Source: Filomicrobium sp.
GTDB lineage: Bacteria > Pseudomonadota > Alphaproteobacteria > Rhizobiales > Hyphomicrobiaceae
Assembly: GCA_002689605.1 (NCBI GenBank)
Contig: NZGY01000006.1
Span: 1 to 34,015 of the forward strand
DNA: 34,015 bases
Direction of reading: 5' to 3'
Shown: positions 5,922 through 23,941 of the stretch, in pieces
Position numbering within the stretch: the first letter of the stretch is position 1
How the letters are laid out: each line of letters opens with the position of its first letter
Program-made: the position numbers and the translations under genes
The notes under the pieces: model-generated
The model's input: only the letters and a program-made list of their open reading frames with translations
The model's database searches: none
What the model was told of the DNA's origin: nothing

Positions 5922-7181
5922 ATGAGTGCTCAGTTAGGCGATACAGACGCGACAAGTCCAAAACATCTCGCCGATAAATATGCGATTGTTGGCGTAGGCG
6001 AAACGGCTTACTTGCGTGGCGGTGGGCGCACGACGCGCGCTATGGCAACTGAAGCGATCTCGAATGCGATGGCAGATGCCGGACTGACGATGGATGACGT
6101 CGACGGCATGCTCTCATATTCTGGTGGCGACTCAACCTTTGCACCTTTCGTTGCTGGCGATCTTGGCATCCGCCTCAACTTTTACATGGACGTGTTCGGC
6201 GGCGGTTCGTCAACGGAGGCGCTGGTCGGCATTGCAATCGGCGTCATCGAGGCCGGCATGTGCAATACTGTTGCGATTTTCCGTTCCATGAATGGCAACA
6301 GTCAGGTGCGGATCGGTGGTACCGGGGCGCGCTCAGCGGTACCGGTCAAGGGCGACGATCTTCATTCACGTGCTTACGGCTGGCAAAGTGCGGGCCAGAT
6401 GTTTGCGCCGACCTTTATGCGCCATATGTACGACTACGGCACAACGCCGGAGCAAGTGGCGATGGTCAAAGTGGTGCATTCGGAACATGCATCGAACAAC
6501 CCCAAGGCTCTCTATAAGAACCGCGTTACGGTCAATGAGGTGCTGAGTTCGCGCATCATCTGCAAACCACTGCATCTGCTGGATTGCTGCGTTGAAACAG
6601 ATAATGCGACCTGCATTATTGTGACGCGCACTGAGCGTGCGACGGATCTCAGGCAACGACCGGCGTTGATCCGCTCTGTCGTTGGGCGTTGTTGCAAGCC
6701 GCGCATCGACATGCACTATCAGCACGGGCCAATCTCAACGGTCGCCGGTCACTACGCCAAGGATATTTTGTGGCCGAATGCCGGACTTGGCCCCGAGGAT
6801 GTCGATGTGACAGCCGCCTATGATGCGTTTACGTTCACGTCGATGTTGCAGCTCGAAGATTACGGGTTCTGCAAAAAGGGTGAGGGTGGCGACTACGTGT
6901 CGAATGGCACGACCCGGCTTGGTGGAAAACGGCCGAACAATACATCTGGTGGGCACCTTTGCGAAGGCTACACGCACGGCATGAATATGGTCATCGAAAA
7001 CGTACGGCAATTGCGTGGTGACGTAGATGACAGCTGTCCTATTGGTCCGGATGGTCAGCGCCAACACACTTACGATTACAAAGAGGGAGGTTGCCGGCAG
7101 GTGCGTGATGTCGAGGTCACATGCAATCTCGGCTGGGCGATGCCGGGGACCGGCTCGGCGATGGTCATGGTACGGGGGTAG
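5922..7181 (+). CDS. Thiolase-superfamily protein lacking the nucleophilic Cys; Ltp2-like aldolase candidate
   Basis: This 419-residue protein belongs to the SCP-x/lipid-transfer branch of thiolases: YAIVGVGET at the start, a long middle domain, YDAFTFT and a GGHLCEGYTHGMN block. Where true thiolases carry the acylated Cys, this protein has FGGGSST (G93-G95), so it cannot form the normal acyl-enzyme. The next gene encodes a DUF35 protein. Steroid-degrading Ltp2 proteins have the same combination: a thiolase fold without the Cys, in complex with DUF35, doing retro-aldol cleavage of a beta-hydroxy acyl-CoA. Two tyrosines in the C-terminal core, Y300 (YDAF) and Y350 (EGYTHG), are candidate catalytic residues. 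I infer a side-chain-cleaving aldolase releasing a ketone or aldehyde plus a short acyl-CoA. A plain thiolase or acyl carrier role is the alternative. The GGGGAGG ribosome-binding site is strong. Confidence 0.82.
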   Translation: MSAQLGDTDATSPKHLADKYAIVGVGETAYLRGGGRTTRAMATEAISNAMADAGLTMDDVDGMLSYSGGDSTFAPFVAGDLGIRLNFYMDVFGGGSSTEALVGIAIGVIEAGMCNTVAIFRSMNGNSQVRIGGTGARSAVPVKGDDLHSRAYGWQSAGQMFAPTFMRHMYDYGTTPEQVAMVKVVHSEHASNNPKALYKNRVTVNEVLSSRIICKPLHLLDCCVETDNATCIIVTRTERATDLRQRPALIRSVVGRCCKPRIDMHYQHGPISTVAGHYAKDILWPNAGLGPEDVDVTAAYDAFTFTSMLQLEDYGFCKKGEGGDYVSNGTTRLGGKRPNNTSGGHLCEGYTHGMNMVIENVRQLRGDVDDSCPIGPDGQRQHTYDYKEGGCRQVRDVEVTCNLGWAMPGTGSAMVMVRG

Positions 7182-7186
7182 AGATC

Positions 7187-7714
7187 ATGAGTGGATTGAC
7201 TGGTGATTTGAACGGCATGGTGTTGACCGTCGATGATCTCGACAACGAGAACATAGCCTATTTCAGTTACTGTGCAAAAGGCGACTTTCGCCTGCAGAAA
7301 TGTTCGGAGAATGGCTTGCTGCGTTATCCACCAACCACGCGCTGTCCGTTTTCAGGTAGTGCTGATGCAGAGTGGGTATCTGTCGAAGGCGAAGGGACTG
7401 TGTATTCCTACAATGAGGTGCATCATGCCATCCAGCCGGCATTTAAGGATGTCGTGCCGTACATGCTGTTACTTGTTGAACTTGACACTCAGAAGGGCAA
7501 GCCGACAGAGCACGATGGTTTGCGCGTGGCTGGGAACCTGATGACCCCCGATGGTGAATTCGCACCGCCAGAGATGATCAAACGTATCGGGATTGGAAGC
7601 CGGATGAAGATGGTTTTTAAGCCTGTGGGCGATGGCATTGCATTGCCAATGTGGACTTTGGATGAAGACGCAGAACAACCGGATCAGCCATGGCGTTACC
7701 CGCAAGAAGACTAG
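7187..7714 (+). CDS. DUF35 OB-fold protein, partner of the thiolase-like protein
   Basis: This 175-residue protein has the DUF35 layout: an N-terminal zinc-ribbon-like region followed by an OB-fold with GEGTVYSYNEVHHAIQPAF and PYMLLLVELD. DUF35 proteins bind thiolase-superfamily or MaoC partners and help hold acyl-CoA. Canonical members have four zinc Cys (CxxC and CPxC). Here only C39 and C53 occupy these places and the second member of each pair is Asn or Ser, so zinc is probably not bound. The ATG at 7187 begins 5 bp after the upstream stop, which implies translational coupling and supports an obligate complex. An in-frame start further upstream would overlap the thiolase gene and is rejected. 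Confidence 0.85.
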   Translation: MSGLTGDLNGMVLTVDDLDNENIAYFSYCAKGDFRLQKCSENGLLRYPPTTRCPFSGSADAEWVSVEGEGTVYSYNEVHHAIQPAFKDVVPYMLLLVELDTQKGKPTEHDGLRVAGNLMTPDGEFAPPEMIKRIGIGSRMKMVFKPVGDGIALPMWTLDEDAEQPDQPWRYPQED

Positions 7715-8267: not shown

Positions 8268-9677
8268 TCATGCCTGACGCGCAGTTTGTTCCTCCGGCAG
8301 AGCGCCTTCCAGCAGGCAAGCCAGTGTTGAGACGCTGGCGTCTTCTTTCAGGCCCTCGATTGCCCGCATGGCGGCTTCGACATCGAACTTCGGTGCGGCT
8401 GATGCCGTCAGCCCCGCTCCCTTGTCCATGACCTGTTGTTTGTCCATCGGGCGGCCTGGCGTGCCGACGCTATCCAGGAGGGTTTGAGATCGAACGCTGC
8501 CATCTGCCATCATGATGTCGACACCTGAACCCATGTGCTTCGGGAACTTGGCTTCAATCTCGGCATCGTGGAGCGTTTCGACTTTGTCGGCCAGCTCCAG
8601 GATTTTGTTGTCGTTGTGATGTGCTTCTCCGTAGGCATCATAGGCCTGCGGACCGGCAACCAATGTTGCTCCGACGATGTAGGGAAGGGAATACTGAGCT
8701 GCCATCACAGACGTTGGCCGCCGGATCATGTGTTGATCGGCATGGGCATGGGGACCGCGCACAACTATCTTGTCGATGTCAGCAATGTTTGTCGAGAAAC
8801 CGTCCGTTATATTTTCCAATGCATCGATTGTCGAGTGGAATAAGCGACAGCACGAATATGGCTTGATGCTGATTTGGTGGATTTCGAACGGAGCATTCGG
8901 TTGTCGAGATAAACGGTCGTAGTTGGCATTCTCACCATAAAGACTGAGGAACCCAAATCGGCCGTCAAGGGCAAGCTCAGGAGCAGCAACGCCGGAAGCG
9001 GCCATTTCAACAGCGAGCACTGCATTGTGCGCAGCATATCCGGCATGCATTCTTTTGACTGCGGTGCCTGATGGCTCATCTGCGAACTGCATCGCGCCAG
9101 ACGCTAGAGACAGAAGATGTCCCCAAGCATGGCATGTCTGGGTTACATCCAGCCCGCGCAGACGGGCTGCTGCGATCGCACCGCCAAAGCCACAAAACAG
9201 GCCGGTTGGGTGGAAACCAGTTTCGATCACGTCTTTGGCGTTTGCGGCCCCACCAATGCGGGCGATAGCTTCATAGCCTGCCACGATCGCTGCGAGGAGA
9301 TCCTGACCGGAACGTCCGTACTCCATTCCGGTTGCAATGGCTGCAGGGATGACAACGCTGCCCGGATGGCTCATCGACTCGTCGTGTGTGTCATCGAGCT
9401 CATAGCTGTGGGTCATGGCACCATTGGCCAGGGCAGCAATGGCAGGGACCGTTCGTGCCGAACTGGCGATGACCTGCGCTTGACCTGTCCCGGTCATACG
9501 CTCGGCATATCTGCGAATAGCCGTCCCCCAATCGGTGGTCGCTCCATAAAGGGCGACACTGATCTGATCAAAGATCAGGATCTCAAGCTGATTGATGTCT
9601 GCAGCTGAAAGGTCAGCAAATGAGAGGCCGAAGAGCTCGTCGGCGAGAACTCGGGTTCTGTTGCTTGCTTCGTCCAT
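8268..9677 (-). CDS. MmgE/PrpD family protein
   Basis: This 469-residue protein aligns by eye over its full length with the MmgE/PrpD family: MTHSYELDDTHDESMSHPG near residue 85, then a GFHPTGLFCGFGGA region. The family includes 2-methylcitrate dehydratase, cis-aconitate decarboxylase and iminodisuccinate epimerase. No methylcitrate synthase or lyase gene is near, so the propionate pathway is unlikely here and a hydro-lyase, decarboxylase or epimerase step on a cluster intermediate is inferred. The start at 9677 is preferred over an in-frame ATG at 9713 because AAGGACGAG precedes it at suitable distance. It lies between the acyl-CoA dehydrogenase (46 bp) and the MaoC gene (34 bp), probably in one transcript. 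Confidence 0.85.
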   Translation of the reverse strand: MDEASNRTRVLADELFGLSFADLSAADINQLEILIFDQISVALYGATTDWGTAIRRYAERMTGTGQAQVIASSARTVPAIAALANGAMTHSYELDDTHDESMSHPGSVVIPAAIATGMEYGRSGQDLLAAIVAGYEAIARIGGAANAKDVIETGFHPTGLFCGFGGAIAAARLRGLDVTQTCHAWGHLLSLASGAMQFADEPSGTAVKRMHAGYAAHNAVLAVEMAASGVAAPELALDGRFGFLSLYGENANYDRLSRQPNAPFEIHQISIKPYSCCRLFHSTIDALENITDGFSTNIADIDKIVVRGPHAHADQHMIRRPTSVMAAQYSLPYIVGATLVAGPQAYDAYGEAHHNDNKILELADKVETLHDAEIEAKFPKHMGSGVDIMMADGSVRSQTLLDSVGTPGRPMDKQQVMDKGAGLTASAAPKFDVEAAMRAIEGLKEDASVSTLACLLEGALPEEQTARQA

Positions 9678-9723
9678 AATGTCTCGTCCTTCATTTGCGG
9701 CCATTTGCAACATGACGATATCA

Positions 9724-10881
9724 CTAGCCGCGATAGGCTGGAATGCCGGTTAGTTCACGACCTTCGATGAGTGTCAGAATTTGATTGGTGCCATCGGGAA
9801 TCGGCATCATGCGAACGTCGCGATACATCTGTTCAAGGCCAAGTTCGCGCGAAATCCCCATCGCGCCGTGAATGTGCATGGCTGCCGATATCGCCTGCTC
9901 GCAGGCGGCGAGTGATTGTCGCTTCGCCATGGCCGTGATCTGATTGGCGCGCTCGCCTGCATCGATACGCGACAGCGCGTAGTAACAAATAAGACGACTG
10001 GTTGTGACGGCGGCGGCGATGTCCGCGATCTGCTCTTGAATGAGTTGGTGGCCAGCGATGGCCTTGCCGAACTGGCGACGCTCCTTGGCATATTCGATGG
10101 CTTTGTCGAGAGCTTGCTGTGCCATGTTGGCAGCGCACAGTCCGATGAATGGCCGATTGCCCATCCACGTTAATGTCAGGCTGCGGGCGGCGTCTCCGGC
10201 TTGACCGAGTTTGTTGGCCGCTGGAACCCAAGTATTGTCGAAAACGGCTTCGCCAAGATGACCTTGGCGCAATCCAAGAGTTGGGATTTCACGTGCCTCG
10301 AATGGCGACTGTTCCTGATCAACGAGCAGGCGCACCATATGCGCAAGGCCCTGCTCATCTTTCCCCATTGCTCCTGTCACATTGACCACGTCCGCAATTG
10401 AAATGTTCGAAATCCACATTTTGCGGCCGGTAATGCGAAAGTCGTCGCCGTCCTGCGTGACCCGGGTTTCAACACCGCGCGGATCGGACCCCGCTCCCGG
10501 TTCTGTCGTTGCCGTACAGGCGAGCTTACGTGATGCCAGGATATCGGCGAGAACGCCATCGCGCTGCGCGTCTGTGCAATCGCTACTGATCCGTGCTGCT
10601 GTGACTTCCTGCGAGAGGACGCCGAAAAACACGTTGGCCGGCAACTGCTCATACATCAAGCCGAGATCAACCATGGACAGTTCCGTGCCACCCATGGCCG
10701 TTGGTACACGTCCACCAAGCATTCCGATCTCGGAGCAAGCCTGCAGGACTTTTCGCATAGCGTCTTTCGGCAGAGGCGTGTCCGGATCATGTGAATCAAG
10801 TACCGGTTGGATATGTTGGCCAACCATGCGTCGGGCTGAGTCCTGAATGAGCTGCTGCTCGGCCGTTAAATCGAAGTCCAC
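9724..10881 (-). CDS. Acyl-CoA dehydrogenase
   Basis: This 385-residue flavoprotein shows the standard acyl-CoA dehydrogenase order: an N-terminal helical domain, the ATTEPGAGSD FAD/substrate loop, KMWISN, and the C-terminal domain with ERRQFGKAIAGHQ and YRDVRMMPIPDGTNQI. In straight-chain enzymes the catalytic base is Glu in a YEGT motif; here it is D363 in IPDGTNQ, a change found in some branches of the family. It would introduce a 2,3-double bond into an acyl-CoA, plausibly an alicyclic or branched one given the BadI-like hydrolase nearby, and pass electrons to ETF. The start is GTG at 10881 with AGGA upstream. It is the second gene of the leftward block, 38 bp after the SDR. Confidence 0.9.
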   Translation of the reverse strand: MDFDLTAEQQLIQDSARRMVGQHIQPVLDSHDPDTPLPKDAMRKVLQACSEIGMLGGRVPTAMGGTELSMVDLGLMYEQLPANVFFGVLSQEVTAARISSDCTDAQRDGVLADILASRKLACTATTEPGAGSDPRGVETRVTQDGDDFRITGRKMWISNISIADVVNVTGAMGKDEQGLAHMVRLLVDQEQSPFEAREIPTLGLRQGHLGEAVFDNTWVPAANKLGQAGDAARSLTLTWMGNRPFIGLCAANMAQQALDKAIEYAKERRQFGKAIAGHQLIQEQIADIAAAVTTSRLICYYALSRIDAGERANQITAMAKRQSLAACEQAISAAMHIHGAMGISRELGLEQMYRDVRMMPIPDGTNQILTLIEGRELTGIPAYRG

Positions 10882-10919
10882 GGTTGGTATTCCTATCCTG
10901 TTGACAACGCATAGGGCGG

Positions 10920-11708
10920 CTATGGCATCACAAATCCGCCGTTGACGCTGATAACTTGTCCTGTCACCCAGGCTGCTTTGTCACTTGCGAGATATGAGAT
11001 CATACCGGCGATGTCGTCAGGCTCACCGATGCGTCCGACCGGGTAGCGACGGTTCACCTTGCGGGTATACGAGGCGTATTTTTCTTCACCCATGGACTGA
11101 CGTATCTCGGCTTCACGGTCCTGACGCAGTTCGGTGTTGGTTGCGCCCGGGGAGACGACATTCATCGTAATGCCGTGTGTGCCGACCTCTTGTGCGACGG
11201 ACTTCACGAGAGCGACGATGCCGCCTTTGGCGGCTGCGTAGTAGGATAGCCGGGCTTGCCCCACGCGTGCCGCATCGGATGCCAGGAAAATCATGCGGCC
11301 ATAACCCCGCTCGATCATTCCGGGCAGCAGACCGTGCATGAGATGCATCGGACCGGTCAGGCAAACCCCCAGCATTCGATCCCAGTCGGACCCATCCGAC
11401 TCCAGGAATGTCTTGTTATCGAGGACGGCAGCGCTGTTGACCAGAATGTCAGGTGGGGCGAGTTCTTTGCTGACCGTCTCGATCATTTTTGCCACTGCCT
11501 CTGGCGCGGCAATGTTAGCTGGAACTGCGATTGCTTCGATGCCGAATCCTCTGCGGAGTGCCTTCGCACCGTGCTCGATACCCTTGCTGTTGATATCGAC
11601 CAAAGCAATCTTGGCACCTTCACCGGCAAGAATGCGGGCTGTGGCAAAGCCGATGCCGCGGGCTCCGCCCGTGATGATAGCGCATTTGCCTGTCAGCCCG
11701 ATATCCAT
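10920..11708 (-). CDS. Short-chain dehydrogenase/reductase, possibly BadH-like hydroxyacyl-CoA dehydrogenase
   Basis: This 262-residue classical SDR has TGGARGIG (residues 13-20), S144, Y157-x-x-x-K161 and a C-terminal VISVNGGF strand. Two usual features are altered: NNAG reads NSAA (91-94), and the Asn of the SDR catalytic tetrad appears to be Cys in GVCLTG. It heads the leftward block. With the acyl-CoA dehydrogenase behind it and the crotonase and BadI-like genes across the divergent promoter, a role in oxidising a 2-hydroxy-alicyclic acyl-CoA to the 2-keto ester fits, as BadH does in cyclohexanecarboxylate degradation. That role is inferred from context. GGAG lies seven bases before the ATG. 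Confidence 0.87.
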   Translation of the reverse strand: MDIGLTGKCAIITGGARGIGFATARILAGEGAKIALVDINSKGIEHGAKALRRGFGIEAIAVPANIAAPEAVAKMIETVSKELAPPDILVNSAAVLDNKTFLESDGSDWDRMLGVCLTGPMHLMHGLLPGMIERGYGRMIFLASDAARVGQARLSYYAAAKGGIVALVKSVAQEVGTHGITMNVVSPGATNTELRQDREAEIRQSMGEEKYASYTRKVNRRYPVGRIGEPDDIAGMISYLASDKAAWVTGQVISVNGGFVMP

Positions 11709-11911
11709 TGCAATGCTCCGTTGCCCACCGCTTGTGATTGCAGCTTAGGTAAGATCCTGAACGTGGACAATGCAGCTCTGTCCGACAATCAGATACTCGG
11801 TGATTGCTGATCGCGTAACAAAGCATCACATCGCAGATCGGCGGAATCTTCACCGATGTGTTGGTCTCTATATAGTCGGGTGATCACATTCAACATGGCA
11901 CGAAGGCCGAT
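11709..11911. promoter_or_regulatory. Divergent promoter region of the acyl-CoA cluster
   Basis: These 203 bases separate the leftward SDR operon from the rightward CoA-transferase operon, so both promoters and any shared operator should be here. No gene is visible. I could not identify sigma-70 boxes or a clear dyad with confidence. The regulator that would act here is not encoded nearby in the window. Confidence 0.5.
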
Positions 11912-14095
11912 ATGGCTGTTGAACAAGCATTCACCGGGATCCGGGTCTTGGAACTGGGCACACGTCTTAGCGCTGGCGGGTGCGGCAGCTTGATGGCTCA
12001 GACCGGGGCGTCAGTTCTTTATGTCAATCTGACGGGCTATTCGTCTTCGGTTCCTACAAAGCACGACTATCGTGCTTTGTTCTCGGCGGGTAAGTCTGCC
12101 GTCTCAATTGTTTGCGATGTGCAGGCGAGTCAATTGCGGGAACTGGTTAGCGCCTCCGACGTCATCATAGCATCGCATGACACTGATCCTGATTGGTCGG
12201 GAGTTCTGGGTGCCGATTGGTCTGATGGTAAGATCGTCTGCGATATATCTGCCTTTGGGTGTTCCGGGCCGTTGAGCGGGCAGACCGCAACCGACTTTGA
12301 AGTCCAAGCGCTCACGGGCTTGATCGATACGACCGGTGATGCCGGTGCACCGCCATCGCGGATTGCTATCCCGGTCACGGAATGCCTGGCGGCTCTGCAT
12401 GCTTTTGGTGGAATTGGTGCGGCCCTGCGAACCCGTCGCATGCAAGGCATTGTCCAAAATGTAGAAATCTCTCTCTATGACTGCGCGTTCGCTGCAAGCG
12501 CTTCGTTTCTCCCTAAATTCATCGCTGAGGGGAAAGTGCCACGACGCGTGGGCAACCGGCATCCCATGACCCTGCCTTGGAACGTCTACAAGTCTCGCGA
12601 TGAGTGGGTTTTAATTTGTACGTCGAGCAATGATCATTGGAAACGTCTGGCCAATCAGCTGGGTGACCAACGCCTTATCGAAGACCAGGAGCTGATGACA
12701 GCAGCCGGCCGGGCCAACCGCGCGGATCAGTTGGATATCGCCATCTCGAAGTGGGTCAAGGAACAAACCGCCGAGGAGTGTGTCCAAACGATTTCGCGAC
12801 TATCAATTCCCTGCGCAACGATAGCGCCACTCGAAAACCATCCGCTTGAGGTCAACCTCGATCACCGCGGTCAGATCTGCAAACTTTATGATCCTGTCGA
12901 TGAACGTGATGTCTTCGTGCCCGGCCCGGTGCTGCGTACGATCGGCCAGTCAGGAAATGTTCCGAACCAGATTCCCAGCATCGATGATGACGGTGGTTGG
13001 AGTGGTGTGGCTGCAACCGTTAAGCCTGGACGAAGCCAGGAACCACAACGTCCACTTGCTGGCATTCGCGTGGTCGAAGTTGGACCTTTGACCACGGGTC
13101 CGCTGTGCGGCCGCATGTTGGCGTCACTCGGTGCAGATGTCGTCAAGGTCGAACCACCCTCGGGTGACGCTATGCGCCAACTGCCCCCGCTGCAGAATGG
13201 TCAGGGGTATTTCTTCAGTTACTACAATACAGGTAAGAGAACTGTTGCGCTTGATCTCAAACAACAAGGTGACCGCGCGCAGCTCACCAATCTTCTTGCT
13301 GGAGCTGATGTCCTTATTCAGAACCTGAAGGAAGGGGCGTTTGCTCGCATGGGTTTTACCAACGACGTGATGGCGGACATCAATCCGCGCCTGGTTCGCT
13401 GTGACATATCTGGATTTGGACAAGATTCGCTTTATAGCGGACGCCCCGCCGTTGACAGTGTCGTCCAGGCGATGTCGGGGATCATGACCGCCAACTGTGC
13501 CGGTAACGAGCCGATGAAGACCGGCATTTCTTTTGTTGACCTAGAAGTTGCTATTCTGTCGTTCGGCGCGGTTCTCGCAGCACTCGAACGACGGGATCAG
13601 ACCGGCAAAGGAGTTCATCTTGACCTTGCCATGCAGGACATTGCCAGCTGGTCGACACAGACGTTCTGGAACGGCGCGGCCTTGCCACCAGCATCGACTG
13701 TGATCGACTGCCAGGACGGAAAAGTTATTGCGCTGAGCGATGGTGACGATTGCTGCAAGGCGCTGGGTCCCCTAAGTGCTGCTGATGGTCATGATGCACA
13801 CCTCAGAACCGACCAAACTGTGACTGACGTTCTCACCGGCCTCGCGGCCGCGGAGTTGGCGGCAGCTCCCCTCAACTCGGTCGCAGACACTTTGAACCAT
13901 CCACAAACTGCGGCACGTCAACTGCATAGTGAGCTGTTAGATCCGACGGGTACAGTGTGGCCCGCGATCCGCGTTCCTGTCAGCCTGTCAGCCACGCCCG
14001 TGCATGCGACGCATGTGATTGGCCCCGTAGGACATGATGCAGCCGCGCTGCTTGATGTCAGCGATCAACCCAGAACGTCAGAGGCAGCGAACTGA
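11912..14095 (+). CDS. Tandem two-domain CaiB/BaiF (family III) CoA-transferase
   Basis: This 727-residue protein contains two family III CoA-transferase domains in one chain, at about residues 8-365 and 382-715; a standard enzyme is one domain of about 400 residues that works as an interlocked dimer. Both have the opening block (GIRVLELGTRLSAGG and GIRVVEVGPLTTGPLCGRML). The catalytic Asp that forms the acyl anhydride is D543 in the second domain (SFVDLEVAILSFGAVLAAL). The matching position in the first domain is E157 (PVTECLAALHAFGGI), so only domain 2 looks fully canonical. It would move CoA from a donor acyl-CoA to the pathway acid, replacing an ATP-dependent ligase. The stop overlaps the next start (TGATG), so translation is coupled to the crotonase. 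GAAGG precedes the ATG. Confidence 0.9.
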   Translation: MAVEQAFTGIRVLELGTRLSAGGCGSLMAQTGASVLYVNLTGYSSSVPTKHDYRALFSAGKSAVSIVCDVQASQLRELVSASDVIIASHDTDPDWSGVLGADWSDGKIVCDISAFGCSGPLSGQTATDFEVQALTGLIDTTGDAGAPPSRIAIPVTECLAALHAFGGIGAALRTRRMQGIVQNVEISLYDCAFAASASFLPKFIAEGKVPRRVGNRHPMTLPWNVYKSRDEWVLICTSSNDHWKRLANQLGDQRLIEDQELMTAAGRANRADQLDIAISKWVKEQTAEECVQTISRLSIPCATIAPLENHPLEVNLDHRGQICKLYDPVDERDVFVPGPVLRTIGQSGNVPNQIPSIDDDGGWSGVAATVKPGRSQEPQRPLAGIRVVEVGPLTTGPLCGRMLASLGADVVKVEPPSGDAMRQLPPLQNGQGYFFSYYNTGKRTVALDLKQQGDRAQLTNLLAGADVLIQNLKEGAFARMGFTNDVMADINPRLVRCDISGFGQDSLYSGRPAVDSVVQAMSGIMTANCAGNEPMKTGISFVDLEVAILSFGAVLAALERRDQTGKGVHLDLAMQDIASWSTQTFWNGAALPPASTVIDCQDGKVIALSDGDDCCKALGPLSAADGHDAHLRTDQTVTDVLTGLAAAELAAAPLNSVADTLNHPQTAARQLHSELLDPTGTVWPAIRVPVSLSATPVHATHVIGPVGHDAAALLDVSDQPRTSEAAN

Positions 14096-14877
14096 TGAGC
14101 GATGACATTCTTCTCGTTGAGCGCAATGCGCCTGCCGTCGTACTCCAGCTCAATCGACCGGCTGCGCGCAATGCGCTCTCAAGTGAGCTTCTGGAACGTC
14201 TTCGCACAGAGCTTCTTGCCGCCGAACAGGATCCAGAGATCCGCGGTGTTGTGATCACGGGCAATGAGAAGTTTTTCTCGGCCGGTGCGGATCTCAACGA
14301 GGCAATGGAAAACCATACTCCGCTTGAGATTGGGCGATGGCTGGATCACTTCACAGACCTCAATAGGACGATCGAGCGGCTATCGAAACCAGTGATTGCC
14401 GCGATTAACGGTCATTGCATGACCGGTGCTCTGGAAGTCGCGTTGGCGTGCGACCTACGGTTTGCGGGAACAGGGGCGAAGTTCGCGATCACAAGCTCAC
14501 GGATTGGTACCGTAGCAGGCGCTGGTGGCACGCAGCGGCTGCCACGGCTTGTGGGCATCCAGCGCGCGAAAGACATTCTGATGGGCGCTAAAGTGTTCGG
14601 GGCTGAGGAGGCCAAGGAGTACGGGATCGTGTTGGATGTGTTTGCTCCCGATCAGGTCTTGGACAAGGCATTGGAGCGCATTGCCGTTTATGCCGAACGT
14701 GCGCCGCTCAGCGTTTGGTTTGCCAAAAAGGCTGTTCACGTCGGCATGCAAATGGACCTCGAGGATGCCATTGAACTGGAGCAGAGCATGGTTGCTCACC
14801 TTTACAGCACTGAAGATCGGATCGAAGGCATAACCGCCTTCCTCGAGAAGCGCAGTGCAACATTCAAAGGCAAATAG
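14095..14877 (+). CDS. Enoyl-CoA hydratase/isomerase (crotonase) family protein
   Basis: This 260-residue crotonase has NRPAARNALS, the oxyanion segments FSAGADL and ALEVALACDLRF, and GAGGTQRLPRLVG. Aligning with classical enoyl-CoA hydratase, the first catalytic Glu position is S134 (AITSSRIGT) and the second is Asp in RAKDILMG. Both hydratase glutamates are therefore changed, and simple syn-hydration is uncertain. Many crotonases with such changes are isomerases, hydrolases or act on ring substrates. In the BadK position of an alicyclic pathway it would hydrate a cyclohexene-type CoA ester; that is an inference from neighbours. Its start overlaps the CoA-transferase stop and it is followed 41 bp later by the BadI-like gene. 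Confidence 0.87.
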   Translation: MSDDILLVERNAPAVVLQLNRPAARNALSSELLERLRTELLAAEQDPEIRGVVITGNEKFFSAGADLNEAMENHTPLEIGRWLDHFTDLNRTIERLSKPVIAAINGHCMTGALEVALACDLRFAGTGAKFAITSSRIGTVAGAGGTQRLPRLVGIQRAKDILMGAKVFGAEEAKEYGIVLDVFAPDQVLDKALERIAVYAERAPLSVWFAKKAVHVGMQMDLEDAIELEQSMVAHLYSTEDRIEGITAFLEKRSATFKGK

Positions 14878-14918
14878 TGCCAGGCAAGTTATATGGCCGC
14901 GACTAGAGGGCAAGATGA

Positions 14919-15713
14919 ATGACGCAGGATGCAACAGTCTATGAAGACCTGCTCTACGACGAGGCAGATGGTGTTGCGACGATCACGATCAATCGCCCCG
15001 ATCGTATGAATGCAACGCGGCAGACCACTTACTATGAGTTGATCGACGCGCTTCAACGCGCCGGCTGGGATGACGCGATCGGTGTTATGGTTTTGACCGG
15101 CGCTGGTGAAAAGGCGTTTTGTATTGGCGGTGACAATTCCGATGCGAAGTCAGAGCGCAAAGGGCGTGGCATTATTGGTGTCCCGGTTGAGGAAATACAT
15201 ACCACCATTCGCGATATTCCCAAGCCTGTGATTGCCAAGGTGCGCGGCTATGCGATTGGCGGAGGCAACGTGCTTGCTACCCTTTGCGATATGACGATCG
15301 CAGGTGAGAGTGCACAGTTTGGCCAGGTTGGACCGAAAGTTGGTTCGGTCGATCCGGGTTGGGGGACGGCATACCTTGCGCATATCATAGGAGAGAAGAA
15401 AGCGCGGGAGATGTGGTACCTCTGTCGGCGTTACACGGCGCGCCAGGCGATGGATATGGGCCTCGTCAATACTGTGGTGGCCGATGCAGACCTCGATGCG
15501 GAGGTCGCGCAATGGTGCGCTGAAATCATGGATCGTAGCCCAACAGCAATCGCACTAGCCAAGCGCTCGTTTAACGCTGCTACCGAGAACCTGAGGGGCA
15601 TTTCCCTGATGGGCTTTGAAGCCGTCAACCTTTACTACAACACAGATGAAGCAAAAGAGATGAGTGCTTCATTCAAAGAGCGGCGCAAGCCGAATGTGCG
15701 AAAGCGAAAATAG
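14919..15713 (+). CDS. badI: BadI-like 2-ketocyclohexanecarboxyl-CoA hydrolase (ring-opening crotonase)
   Basis: This 264-residue crotonase belongs to the MenB/BadI branch. Diagnostic blocks are FCIGGD, a RG..G.PVEEIHT stretch, KPVIAKVRGYAIGGGNVLAT, FGQVGPKVGSVDPGWGT and EKKAREMWYLCRRYTARQA. These match what I recall of Rhodopseudomonas BadI more closely than MenB, including the C-terminal YYNTDEAKE...RRKP tail. BadI hydrates and opens the ring of 2-ketocyclohexane-1-carboxyl-CoA to give pimelyl-CoA. A ring-opening step on some 2-keto-alicyclic CoA ester is therefore likely, although the exact ring is unknown. The menaquinone synthase MenB is the main alternative, but no other men gene is present. 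It closes the rightward operon; GAGGGC lies about nine bases before the ATG. Confidence 0.82.
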   Translation: MTQDATVYEDLLYDEADGVATITINRPDRMNATRQTTYYELIDALQRAGWDDAIGVMVLTGAGEKAFCIGGDNSDAKSERKGRGIIGVPVEEIHTTIRDIPKPVIAKVRGYAIGGGNVLATLCDMTIAGESAQFGQVGPKVGSVDPGWGTAYLAHIIGEKKAREMWYLCRRYTARQAMDMGLVNTVVADADLDAEVAQWCAEIMDRSPTAIALAKRSFNAATENLRGISLMGFEAVNLYYNTDEAKEMSASFKERRKPNVRKRK

Positions 15714-16331: not shown

Positions 16332-17477
16332 ATGGCATTGTCAGCTCGCAAGGTAGCAACTGCTCTGCCCGGCCGCCATTCCGATGGCAAAGGACTGATG
16401 CTGCTCGTCAAGAAGAGCGGCGCGAGGTCTTGGGTTTTCCGATACCAGCTTAACGGCAAGCGGCGGGACATGGGGCTTGGTCCCTACCCTGAAGTCAGTC
16501 TTGCTGCAGCAAGAGAGAAGGTCGTAGCGTTGCGCCGTCAGCTTCTCGAAGGACCAGATCCGCTTAATAGTGCTTCAGAGCGCATTTTCACATTTCAGGA
16601 CTTGGCCGCTGAGCTGATCGAGAGCAAACGCCCCGGTTGGAAGAACGCGAAACATGCCGCTCAGTGGACATCAACACTGGAAACCTATGCATACCCGACC
16701 TTGAGCAAGATGGACGTTCGGAACATAGACACTCCACATGTCCACGCCCTCCTTAAACAGATTTGGACGAAGAAACCGGAAACCGCGAGCAGAGTCCGCC
16801 AGCGCATCGAGGCCGTGCTAGACTACGCGACAGCGCTGGGCCTCCGGGACGGGGCAAACCCGGCGAGGTGGCGGGGGCATTTGCAAAACATTTTGCCAAG
16901 ACCGTCGTCGATACGGCCAGTGCAGCACCACCCAGCGCTGGATTGGCAAGAGATGCCAACATTCATGGCGGAACTTACAAAGCGCGAAGGCGTTTCTGCC
17001 ATTGCTCTGATGTTTACAATCCTCACTTCTGCTCGTTCTGGCGAAGTCCGCGGGATGAGATGGAGAGAGATCAGTCTAAATTCGGGCGTTTGGACAATTC
17101 CGGCCGACCGCATGAAGGCCTCGAAAGAACACCGAGTCCCCGTCGCCCCGCAGGCTGTTGCCCTTCTCGGAAATCCGGGCGAGGCTGATCAGCTGATCTT
17201 TGGCAATCCGATCCATCCATCCCGTCCACTCAGCGACATGGCCTTGACATCGGTGCTCAGAAAAATGGGGCGATCAGATATTACGGTGCATGGTTTCCGG
17301 TCTACGTTCCGGGATTGGGCAGGCGAGACGACCAGCTTTTCGCGCGAAGTCATTGAAGCCGCCCTTGCGCACCAGCTCAAAGATAAGGCAGAGGCTGCGT
17401 ATGCTCGCGGAGACCTCTTCGCCAAACGCCGTAAGCTGATGGAGGCTTGGGCAGCCTTCGTGGCGGAAGGACATTGA
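16332..17477 (+). CDS. Tyrosine recombinase (P4-type integrase)
   Basis: This 381-residue integrase has an N-terminal arm-binding domain of the DUF4102 type (GRHSDGKGLMLLVKKSGARS, then RRDMGLGPYPEVSLAAAREK), a central SAM-like domain, and the catalytic domain. Catalytic residues seen are R235 (TSARSGEVRG), H320 and R323 (HGFRSTFRDW), H347 (ALAHQ) and the nucleophile Y357 (AAYARGD). The set is complete, so it may be active. Such enzymes insert islands at tRNA 3' ends. The matching repeat lies directly upstream and its partner is in the tRNA-Ser gene at 23852-23941. It is slightly shorter than the usual 400-430 residues, mainly at the N-terminus. No excisionase gene is recognisable. Confidence 0.92.
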   Translation: MALSARKVATALPGRHSDGKGLMLLVKKSGARSWVFRYQLNGKRRDMGLGPYPEVSLAAAREKVVALRRQLLEGPDPLNSASERIFTFQDLAAELIESKRPGWKNAKHAAQWTSTLETYAYPTLSKMDVRNIDTPHVHALLKQIWTKKPETASRVRQRIEAVLDYATALGLRDGANPARWRGHLQNILPRPSSIRPVQHHPALDWQEMPTFMAELTKREGVSAIALMFTILTSARSGEVRGMRWREISLNSGVWTIPADRMKASKEHRVPVAPQAVALLGNPGEADQLIFGNPIHPSRPLSDMALTSVLRKMGRSDITVHGFRSTFRDWAGETTSFSREVIEAALAHQLKDKAEAAYARGDLFAKRRKLMEAWAAFVAEGH

Positions 17478-20619: not shown

Positions 20620-22530
20620 TTAGAAGTGATAGCTCGCGCCAATTCGCAAGGTGTGAAGTGTGCCGTCGGCAAAGGCCGGATCGGCAGCGCTGCAATCGTT
20701 ACACCTGTCCGATTTTTCATCGAAACCGTAGTAGAGATACTCAGCCCGAATTGCCAGGTTGTCGGTCGGTTTGAATTCGGTTCCGGCGCCGGCGACGAGA
20801 GCGGCAAAGTTCTTGTACGTAACGATCTGATCAGGAACGCTGTCATAGCCTGATACTTTGCCGTTGACGTATCCGATCCCCCCCGTCACGTAAACCAGGG
20901 ATTGCCCGGCTGCTAGTCCGATACGGCCGCGCAAGCTGCCAAACCCGTTAATTTTCGATGACTTGAAATGATCCGTACTGTCGAATAACCTCGCCTCGCC
21001 GGAATTGGTAAATGCGTAGTCAAGCTCGACGCCGAATACGGCCGATCCGATCTGGTAGTTGTATCCAGCATGCACGCCGCCCGCAACGTCCTGTGACGTC
21101 GTGAATACGGTCAAGCCTGCCGCATCGTATATCGTGCCGTCCTCATCCCGAATACCGGTCCTGCTGTTCACTCCGGCAATGTGCCCCCCAGCGTAGAGCC
21201 CTGTCCAATTGGACCCCTTTGTTTCGAATGCCTCGGCAAGCGCGCCGTTGATGTGATAAGTCACGCCGAGCCGCATGGAATGAATGGCACCATCGGCGAG
21301 CTGCGGCTGCGGCTGACAACTGGTACAGACGTCGCTTTTCTCGTCAAAAGAGTAGCGAAGATATTCGCCGCGGACCGACATGTTCGGGGTCAGTTTTGCT
21401 TCGACGCCGGCGCCGGCAACCAGAGCCCGGAAACCGCTGTAGGAGACGACCTGGTTTGGAAGGCTGTCATATCCCATAAGATCGGCGTTGACATAGCCGA
21501 CACCACCTGTGACGTAGGCAAGTGCATTACCCGAAGCAACGCCCATACGTCCTCTTATGCTGCCGAAACCGTCGATCTGAGACGACAGGAAATGATCTGT
21601 ACCGTCAAAAATTCGTGTGTAGCCAGAGTTGGTCCAGCTATAGTCCACTTCGACGCCGAGAACGGCCGCGCCGGACTGAAGATTATACCCGCCATGCAGA
21701 CCACCGGCAAAGTCCAAATCGTTGGTGAATACCGTGCCGACGTCCAGATCGAAAACGGTGGAGTCTTCGTCAGCAATGCCGGTATTCGTGTCTGAAGCAC
21801 CGACATGTGCGCCGGCATAGAAGCCGGACCAAGCCTTCGAACTCGTGCGACGCAAAGGCCGTGACCCGTCCGCGAAATGATGCGTCACGCCAGCCCGCAA
21901 AACGTGTAGGGCGCCGTTGCCAGTTTGAGGTTCATCGCAGTCGTTGCAGGTGTCGCGCTTATCATTGAAGTGATAGTAAAGGTACTCACCGCGGAATGAG
22001 ACATTTTCTGCGAGTTTGAATTCCGTGCCGGCACCGGCGACCATGGCGGTGAAATTCTCATAACGAGCAATCTGGTCGGGTAGACTTTCAAATCCGAACA
22101 CATCGGAGTTGACAAATCCGATGCCGCCGGTGATAAAAATCAGGGCGTTATTGACTGCCACACCAGCACGGCCACGAATGCTGCCGAAACCGTCAATCTG
22201 CGAAGAGATGAAATGACCGGTGTTGTCCAAATAGCGGGCTTGTCCGGCATCCGTCCGCGAATAATCTGCCTCGATGCCGAGCACAGTGGATCCGAATTGC
22301 CAGTTGTAACCTATATGAATGCCGGCAAGTCCGGTCAGATCGTTGGTAAAGCCTGTTGTGCCATCTTCGTCAAACACAGTGCTGTCTTCATCGCGGATCC
22401 CGGTAGTCGAATCGACGGCACCGGCATGCACACCGACGTAAAAGCCCGACCATTCTTCAGCGGCAACTGGAGTGGAAGCAGTGAAACCGAACAATGCGGC
22501 GGCTATAACCAAGCGTCTGATGATCGTCAT
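20620..22530 (-). CDS. Outer-membrane protein with three tandem beta-barrel domains
   Basis: This 636-residue protein has a Sec signal peptide (residues 1-24, IRRLVIAAALFGF then PVAA) and three homologous units starting at W27, W234 and W442 (W-S/T-G-F/L-Y), of 207, 208 and 195 residues. Each unit has TGIxDEDxT, an LGIEADYS-type strand, IDGFGSIRGR, YVTGGVGYVN, LVAGAGTE and a final LRxGVTYHF-type strand, as in Omp25/Omp31-like 8-stranded barrels. A CxxC occurs at the same offset in every unit: C195/C198, C402/C405 and C610/C613, in the last loop. The chain ends in Phe, the normal assembly signal. GAGGGG lies before the ATG. It is intact inside an otherwise decaying island, which suggests selection. 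Function is unknown; one triple barrel or three side-by-side barrels is inferred. Confidence 0.88.
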   Translation of the reverse strand: MTIIRRLVIAAALFGFTASTPVAAEEWSGFYVGVHAGAVDSTTGIRDEDSTVFDEDGTTGFTNDLTGLAGIHIGYNWQFGSTVLGIEADYSRTDAGQARYLDNTGHFISSQIDGFGSIRGRAGVAVNNALIFITGGIGFVNSDVFGFESLPDQIARYENFTAMVAGAGTEFKLAENVSFRGEYLYYHFNDKRDTCNDCDEPQTGNGALHVLRAGVTHHFADGSRPLRRTSSKAWSGFYAGAHVGASDTNTGIADEDSTVFDLDVGTVFTNDLDFAGGLHGGYNLQSGAAVLGVEVDYSWTNSGYTRIFDGTDHFLSSQIDGFGSIRGRMGVASGNALAYVTGGVGYVNADLMGYDSLPNQVVSYSGFRALVAGAGVEAKLTPNMSVRGEYLRYSFDEKSDVCTSCQPQPQLADGAIHSMRLGVTYHINGALAEAFETKGSNWTGLYAGGHIAGVNSRTGIRDEDGTIYDAAGLTVFTTSQDVAGGVHAGYNYQIGSAVFGVELDYAFTNSGEARLFDSTDHFKSSKINGFGSLRGRIGLAAGQSLVYVTGGIGYVNGKVSGYDSVPDQIVTYKNFAALVAGAGTEFKPTDNLAIRAEYLYYGFDEKSDRCNDCSAADPAFADGTLHTLRIGASYHF

Positions 22531-23850: not shown

Positions 23851-23865
23851 ATGGCGGAGAGAGAG
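23851..23865 (+). repeat. Right attachment-site repeat within the tRNA-Ser 3' end
   Basis: ATGGCGGAGAGAGAG matches 16166-16180 exactly and in the same orientation. Fourteen of the 15 bases belong to the tRNA-Ser gene (encoded CCA, discriminator and 3' acceptor strand). The tRNA stays complete because the element would have restored this end on insertion. Confidence 0.75.
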
Positions 23866-23941
23866 GGATTCGAACCCTCGAGACGGTTTCCCGCCTACAC
23901 GCGTTCCAGGCGTGCGCCTTCAACCACTCGGCCACCTCTCC
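23852..23941 (-). tRNA. tRNA-Ser(GGA)
   Basis: The minus strand from 23941 to 23852 folds as a 90-nt class II tRNA. It has acceptor GGAGAGG paired with UCUCUCC (one G-U), a D-loop region with GGCCGAGUGGUUGAAGGC, and an anticodon stem CACGC/GCGUG around loop CUGGAAC with anticodon GGA. It also has a long variable arm and GGGUUCGAAUCCC as T-arm. Discriminator G and an encoded CCA follow. The long variable arm and the anticodon identify serine (UCC/UCU codons). Confidence 0.95.

Follow-up and report, generated by a model that had tools for sequence, protein, structure and literature searches.

What does a thiolase-fold protein do once it has lost the acylated cysteine, and on which substrate does it act? 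This question is raised by two adjacent genes in a 34,015-nucleotide stretch of Filomicrobium sp. DNA (contig NZGY01000006.1, hereafter the window), which comes from a 4.96-Mb genome assembly of 168 contigs. The genes encode a Cys-less thiolase-fold protein and a DUF35 protein (Table 1), and we establish here their sequences, predicted folds, pairing, residue conservation and separation as a clade. The first reading frame stops with TAG at 7179-7181, five bases before the ATG of the DUF35 gene at 7187; the coordinates and spacing of the original prediction are thus correct. The 419-aa protein matches Thiolase_C_1 in Pfam and several NCBIfam "lipid-transfer protein" and "thiolase domain" models, the latter all far under their cut-offs, and the 175-aa protein matches PF01796 (DUF35), the ChsH2 OB-fold family. 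Scans for promoters and terminators gave no excess of sites over chance expectation. The reading we favour, with moderate confidence, is that the pair is a Cys-less thiolase-fold beta-hydroxyacyl-CoA retro-aldolase with its DUF35 partner, probably acting on a substrate that is not a steroid.

Table 1. Position of the gene pair and of its diagnostic residues in the window
Feature	Position	Strand	Remarks
Aldolase-like thiolase-fold gene, Cys-less	5922..7181	+	419 aa; C-terminal domain PF22691
Gly95 codon (acylated-Cys position of thiolases)	6204..6206	+	aligned to Cys of paralogue L104
Y300-D-A-F motif (Ltp2 Y294-D-H-F; Sal Y302-D-C-Y)	6819..6830	+	invariant 85/85
C347-E-G-Y350-T segment	6960..6974	+	Cys347 and Tyr350 invariant 85/85
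Clade insert, residues 370-391	7029..7094	+	~22 residues; invariant Cys372, His382, Cys391
DUF35 gene, free-standing (ChsH2-type OB-fold)	7187..7714	+	175 aa; without fused MaoC domain
Degenerate DUF35 zinc ribbon: C39, N42, C53, S56	7301..7354	+	two of four ligands lost

Distribution and conservation of the pair

A scan of GTDB genomes recovered 80 loci whose products are 78-87% identical to the aldolase-like protein. Adding the loci of relatives, two of them already among the scan records, gives 84 further loci (at least 78% identity) and, with the window, the 85 orthologues considered below. The carriers in the scan are mostly MAGs labelled Acetobacteraceae, Reyranella, SAR116 and other Alphaproteobacteria, plus isolated MAGs with other labels; the closest orthologue in a named record belongs to a Rhizobiales MAG. 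Cultured carriers include Reyranella soli, whose DUF35 protein keeps Cys4, Vineibacter terrae and Bradyrhizobium sp. LHD-71. In an even draw of Alphaproteobacteria the protein occurs in 20 of 387 genomes, and a plasmid collection yielded no orthologue, all matches there being below 60% identity. A DUF35 gene (55-81% identity) lies directly downstream at every one of the 84 loci. Against the three relatives for which it could be computed, the estimated dN/dS of the aldolase gene is ~0.03-0.05 and dS is saturated, indicating that the gene is old and strongly constrained. The constant adjacency, the low dN/dS and the invariance of Gly95, Tyr300 and Tyr350 show that the pairing goes beyond chance. 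Judged by its sequences, the pair forms a highly conserved branch of its own, so far unstudied, in marine and soil alphaproteobacteria.

Fold and active site

Among solved structures, the best sequence match is Ltp2 of Thermomonospora curvata (TcLtp2; 6ok1_A, E 5.3e-61), followed by 4u4e and the Comamonas Sal. An AlphaFold2 model of the aldolase-like protein, built from orthologues and paralogues, has a mean pLDDT of 81.7 and a pTM of 0.86; its top fold match is the Ltp2 chain of the 6ok1 Ltp2-DUF35 aldolase (Z 49.8, 1.8 A over 357 residues), with 4u4e tied at Z 49.2 and Sal at Z 47.0. For the DUF35 model (pLDDT 88.2), the best matches are the DUF35 subunits in the complexes formed by Ltp2 and by Sal. 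The same fold as that of the aldolase-like protein occurs in SCP2-type thiolases (e.g. 6hsp) and in benzoylsuccinyl-CoA thiolase (7pxp, Bbs), and the latter also has a DUF35 partner.

The original prediction held that glycine replaces the acylated cysteine. The GGGSS motif is present, and in an alignment with Ltp2 and an SCP2-type thiolase the nucleophile column is occupied by Gly95. The thiolase used, L104, is a paralogue from the same genome and serves as a positive control, since it has a cysteine in this column (EGACASGG) as well as the HDCF and GHP motifs. Glycine occupies the position in all 85 orthologues and also in TcLtp2, the Comamonas Sal and 4u4e. The two tyrosines that were said to be kept are indeed the equivalents of the TcLtp2 pair: Tyr294 and Tyr344 align with Tyr300 and Tyr350 at a constant offset of 6, and both are invariant (85/85). 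For TcLtp2, PMC12329534 assigns Tyr294 the role of base, Tyr344 that of acid or proton donor and His296 that of oxyanion hole, and cites a ~14-fold cost of replacing His296.

Two features had been overlooked. First, the histidine of the Ltp2 YDHF motif is Ala302 in the alignment of all 85 orthologues, and the essential Cys304 of Sal, which falls at the same position, is missing as well. The Tyr302/Cys304/Gln352 set of Sal is represented here by Tyr, Ala and Tyr, while Gly95, YDAF and GYT stand in place of the Cys, HDCF and GHP of SCP2-type thiolases, whose Cys/His machinery is missing. Second, the clade has a C-terminal insert, found in every orthologue and absent from all compared outgroups that reach the region.

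That Ala302 occurs naturally, set beside the ~14-fold cost of replacing His296, implies either a rebuilt oxyanion hole or a different chemistry. Under the second option the protein would be a decarboxylase, would run an aldol or acyl transfer towards synthesis, or would carry acyl-CoA without catalysis, and Cys347 or the C/H/C insert would have a role. It draws on the removal of both the Ltp2 oxyanion histidine and Sal Cys304 by Ala302, on the invariance of His345, Cys347 and the three insert residues across the orthologous sequences, and on the Cys-less homologue TbSLP, which shows slow malonyl-CoA decarboxylase activity (PMC12329534). A carrier or decarboxylase would, however, have no obvious need for the catalytic tyrosine pair of Ltp2 that is retained throughout, and we regard such chemistry as rather unlikely.

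Proposed reaction

The retro-aldolase reading is favoured by the best match to Ltp2-DUF35, the glycine at the nucleophile position, the two invariant tyrosines and the unfailing adjacency of the DUF35 gene, which together back the original assignment to Cys-less, Ltp2/Sal-like thiolase folds with a DUF35 partner. Homology and residue conservation suggest complex formation, the reaction and the class of substrate. The two proteins would probably assemble like the Ltp2-ChsH2(DUF35) heterotetramer, the DUF35 protein completing the active site, and would cleave a beta-hydroxyacyl-CoA into a ketone or aldehyde and a short acyl-CoA. Tyr300 would act as the base that takes the proton of the beta-hydroxyl, and Tyr350 as the acid that protonates the resulting enolate; as position 302 is alanine, the oxyanion hole would be formed without the histidine side chain used by Ltp2. 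The alcohol of the substrate is probably tertiary or on a ring, and would not be oxidisable for normal beta-oxidation. A conserved tyrosine pair on this thiolase fold is not in itself proof of an aldolase. Operon-like genes for CoA ligase, CoA transferase or enoyl-CoA hydratase at some loci count for the retro-aldolase reading; Ala302 and the non-conserved neighbours count against it, and pathway context lends it no support.

Genomic neighbourhood

The neighbours of the pair in the window encode a PhyH protein, two SDR proteins, MaoC, MmgE/PrpD, an acyl-CoA dehydrogenase, a tandem class III CoA-transferase and two enoyl-CoA-hydratase-like proteins. One of the latter resembles BadI (398 bits; cut-off 467.6) and one SDR resembles BadH (228.5 bits; cut-off 431.2), so that "ring-degradation cluster", the label first given to the window, is a fair one. 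A lineage-specific block at 8268-15713 contains the MmgE/PrpD, acyl-CoA dehydrogenase, BadH-like SDR, tandem class III CoA-transferase, enoyl-CoA hydratase and BadI-like hydrolase genes, and suggests alicyclic ring opening. Downstream of the BadI-like gene is an integrase-like ORF (16332-17477, named from its sequence only), and the catabolic genes are possibly part of a mobile island. Elsewhere in the window we found a single tRNA gene, a tRNA-Ser at 23852-23941, and two long ORFs (20620-22530 and 1354-2838) with two or three internal repeats resembling outer-membrane beta-barrels (e.g. GFYVGVHAG, YYGFDEKSD).

It is tempting to place the pair in the local pathway with the PhyH/SDR and BadH/BadI-like ring-opening genes, for example cleaving an alicyclic beta-hydroxyacyl-CoA supplied by PhyH or MaoC. 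Such a role concerns the pathway and does not conflict with the retro-aldolase reading, and the window does hold PhyH, BadI-like and BadH-like genes, with MaoC and the acyl-CoA dehydrogenase next door. However, when 12 window neighbours were searched by tblastn against the fetched loci, none was conserved; the only match of at least 45% identity was the integrase, at one locus. De novo clustering of neighbours at 82 loci found nothing beyond 14/82 except the pair itself, and the 128 neighbour proteins tallied by Pfam family were widely scattered, with MFS and alpha/beta hydrolases the most frequent. The operon-like neighbours of orthologous pairs vary, including MFS transporters, CoA ligases, CoA transferases, enoyl-CoA hydratases and SDRs. 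Among 100 relatives, no counterpart of PhyH or of the CoA-transferase exceeds 45% identity, and in the window itself 212 bp separate PhyH from the pair, with the MaoC block on the opposite strand. Since the PhyH, SDR, MaoC and BadH/BadI-like genes are conserved beside 0 of 84 pairs, the local cluster is uninformative on the substrate, and we rejected a transfer of function from it; participation in the local pathway appears quite unlikely. The PhyH and ring-degradation setting, cited together with the lack of steroid genes when a new substrate was proposed, is thus weak evidence for a substrate.

Relationship to steroid and other aldolases

In the reference tree the clade forms its own long, fully supported branch. 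It may adjoin the true Ltp2 group and the Bosea/Novosphingobium group. The closest outsider is ~41% identical and the two Ltp2 proteins compared are 35-37% identical, whereas Ltp2 orthologues of actinobacteria and Comamonas share 61-64% (PMC12502768). By these comparisons, neither steroid Ltp2 nor Sal is an orthologue of the clade.

The steroid C3 side-chain aldolase Ltp2-ChsH2(DUF35) (PDB 6ok1) has in common with the pair the thiolase fold, the nucleophile glycine, the tyrosine equivalents and the DUF35 partner. It differs in its YDHF motif and in the steroid operon and MaoC-fused DUF35, in place of which the pair has YDAF, the 22-aa C/H/C insert and a free-standing DUF35 protein, with no chsE/chsH/ltp2 operon conserved. 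The bile-acid C5 side-chain aldolase Sal-Shy(DUF35) of Comamonas testosteroni (PDB 9myr) is likewise proteobacterial and has the fold, the loss of cysteine, the first tyrosine and the DUF35 partner; it is 33% identical, and its Cys304 and Gln352 contrast with Ala302 and Tyr350 here. The uncharacterised "thiolase" 4u4e of Sphaerobacter thermophilus is also Cys-less with a YDxF motif, but this reads YDSF, and a histidine occupies the Tyr350 position.

According to the original prediction, this gene pair with loss of cysteine defines the steroid aldolases. The host genome speaks against this, as it contains four more thiolase-like/DUF35 pairs (L101-L104; contigs C49, C42, C14 and C44), three of which are Cys-less, with YDAF or YDSF and a histidine at the Tyr350 position as in 4u4e; only L104 is a Cys-containing thiolase. 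With four of five pairs in one genome lacking the cysteine, a DUF35 neighbour and cysteine loss are not diagnostic of a steroid aldolase. The predicted lack of a recognisable steroid context was upheld: a search of the genome for the steroid hydroxylase KshA gave a marginal partial match only, and a full-length match occurs in just 1 of 21 pair-bearing genomes tested. Although KshA is only one marker, its scarcity speaks against an aerobic 9,10-seco route for steroids.

That the pair is a divergent Ltp2 equivalent, cleaving side chains of steroids or other polycyclic terpenoids within a pathway whose genes lie at other sites of the genome, is very unlikely: TcLtp2 is its closest solved relative and the tyrosine pair is common to Ltp2 and not Sal, but the identity to Ltp2 is far from the 61% or more seen among true Ltp2 across phyla (PMC12502768), KshA is absent or marginal in this genome and seldom full-length in other carriers, Ala302 replaces the histidine, and neither a ChsH2-type fusion nor a conserved ACAD/MaoC block accompanies the pair. 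The proposed mechanism follows that of Ltp2 in outline, but since His296, orthology and the operon or fusion are all wanting, the name Ltp2 is inappropriate.

A non-steroid substrate is favoured by the low identity to Ltp2, the separate branch, the rarity of KshA and the precedent of IpfDE, a retro-aldolase of the ibuprofen pathway described in sphingomonads (PMC9195938). IpfD/IpfE, which we liken to the pair by description, are also an alphaproteobacterial two-gene system, to which a retro-aldolase step on a non-steroid CoA thioester has been assigned; they differ in acting on a ring dihydrodiol and in lying inside a dioxygenase cluster. The Gram-negative setting, stressed in the original prediction, is not new, Sal and Ltp2 of Comamonas having already been characterised (PMC12329534, PMC12502768) besides IpfDE in sphingomonads. 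With non-steroid retro-aldolases described, the kind of enzyme is already known, and the novelty here lies in the clade together with its residue set and insert.

If the proteins are aldolases, a C-C-cleaving step that is widespread and strongly conserved among alphaproteobacteria of soils and the sea now carries the wrong name; current annotation is loose (lipid-transfer protein, acetyl-CoA acetyltransferase, thiolase-domain protein), all far below curated cut-offs. They would also offer a natural test of a thiolase-fold aldolase that has neither the Ltp2 His nor the Sal Cys, with or without zinc in DUF35.

The DUF35 partner

Loss of two of the four zinc ligands, noted in the original prediction, is confirmed but marks a sub-lineage. 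The Cys4 ribbon is kept in 56 of the 85 DUF35 orthologues, the remaining patterns being GSCT (17), SSCS (6), CNCS (4), NNCT (1) and CDCC (1), and mapping the ligand state on the aldolase tree requires as few as two changes. The loss is thus a lineage trait and does not define the clade. Cys53 (7343-7345) is invariant in all 85 proteins even where other ligands are gone, suggesting a role outside the zinc ribbon. One could speculate that the clade is a third, non-steroid subfamily of thiolase-fold aldolases, in which catalysis uses the two tyrosines, the oxyanion hole has no histidine and the invariant C/H/C insert may coordinate a metal, perhaps with Cys53 of DUF35, and which acts on a substrate common to diverse alphaproteobacteria; we consider this full picture unlikely. 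Where complete, the orthologous DUF35 proteins are free-standing and 164-178 aa long. The DUF35 partners of the paralogues L102 and L103 also lack some of the zinc ligands.
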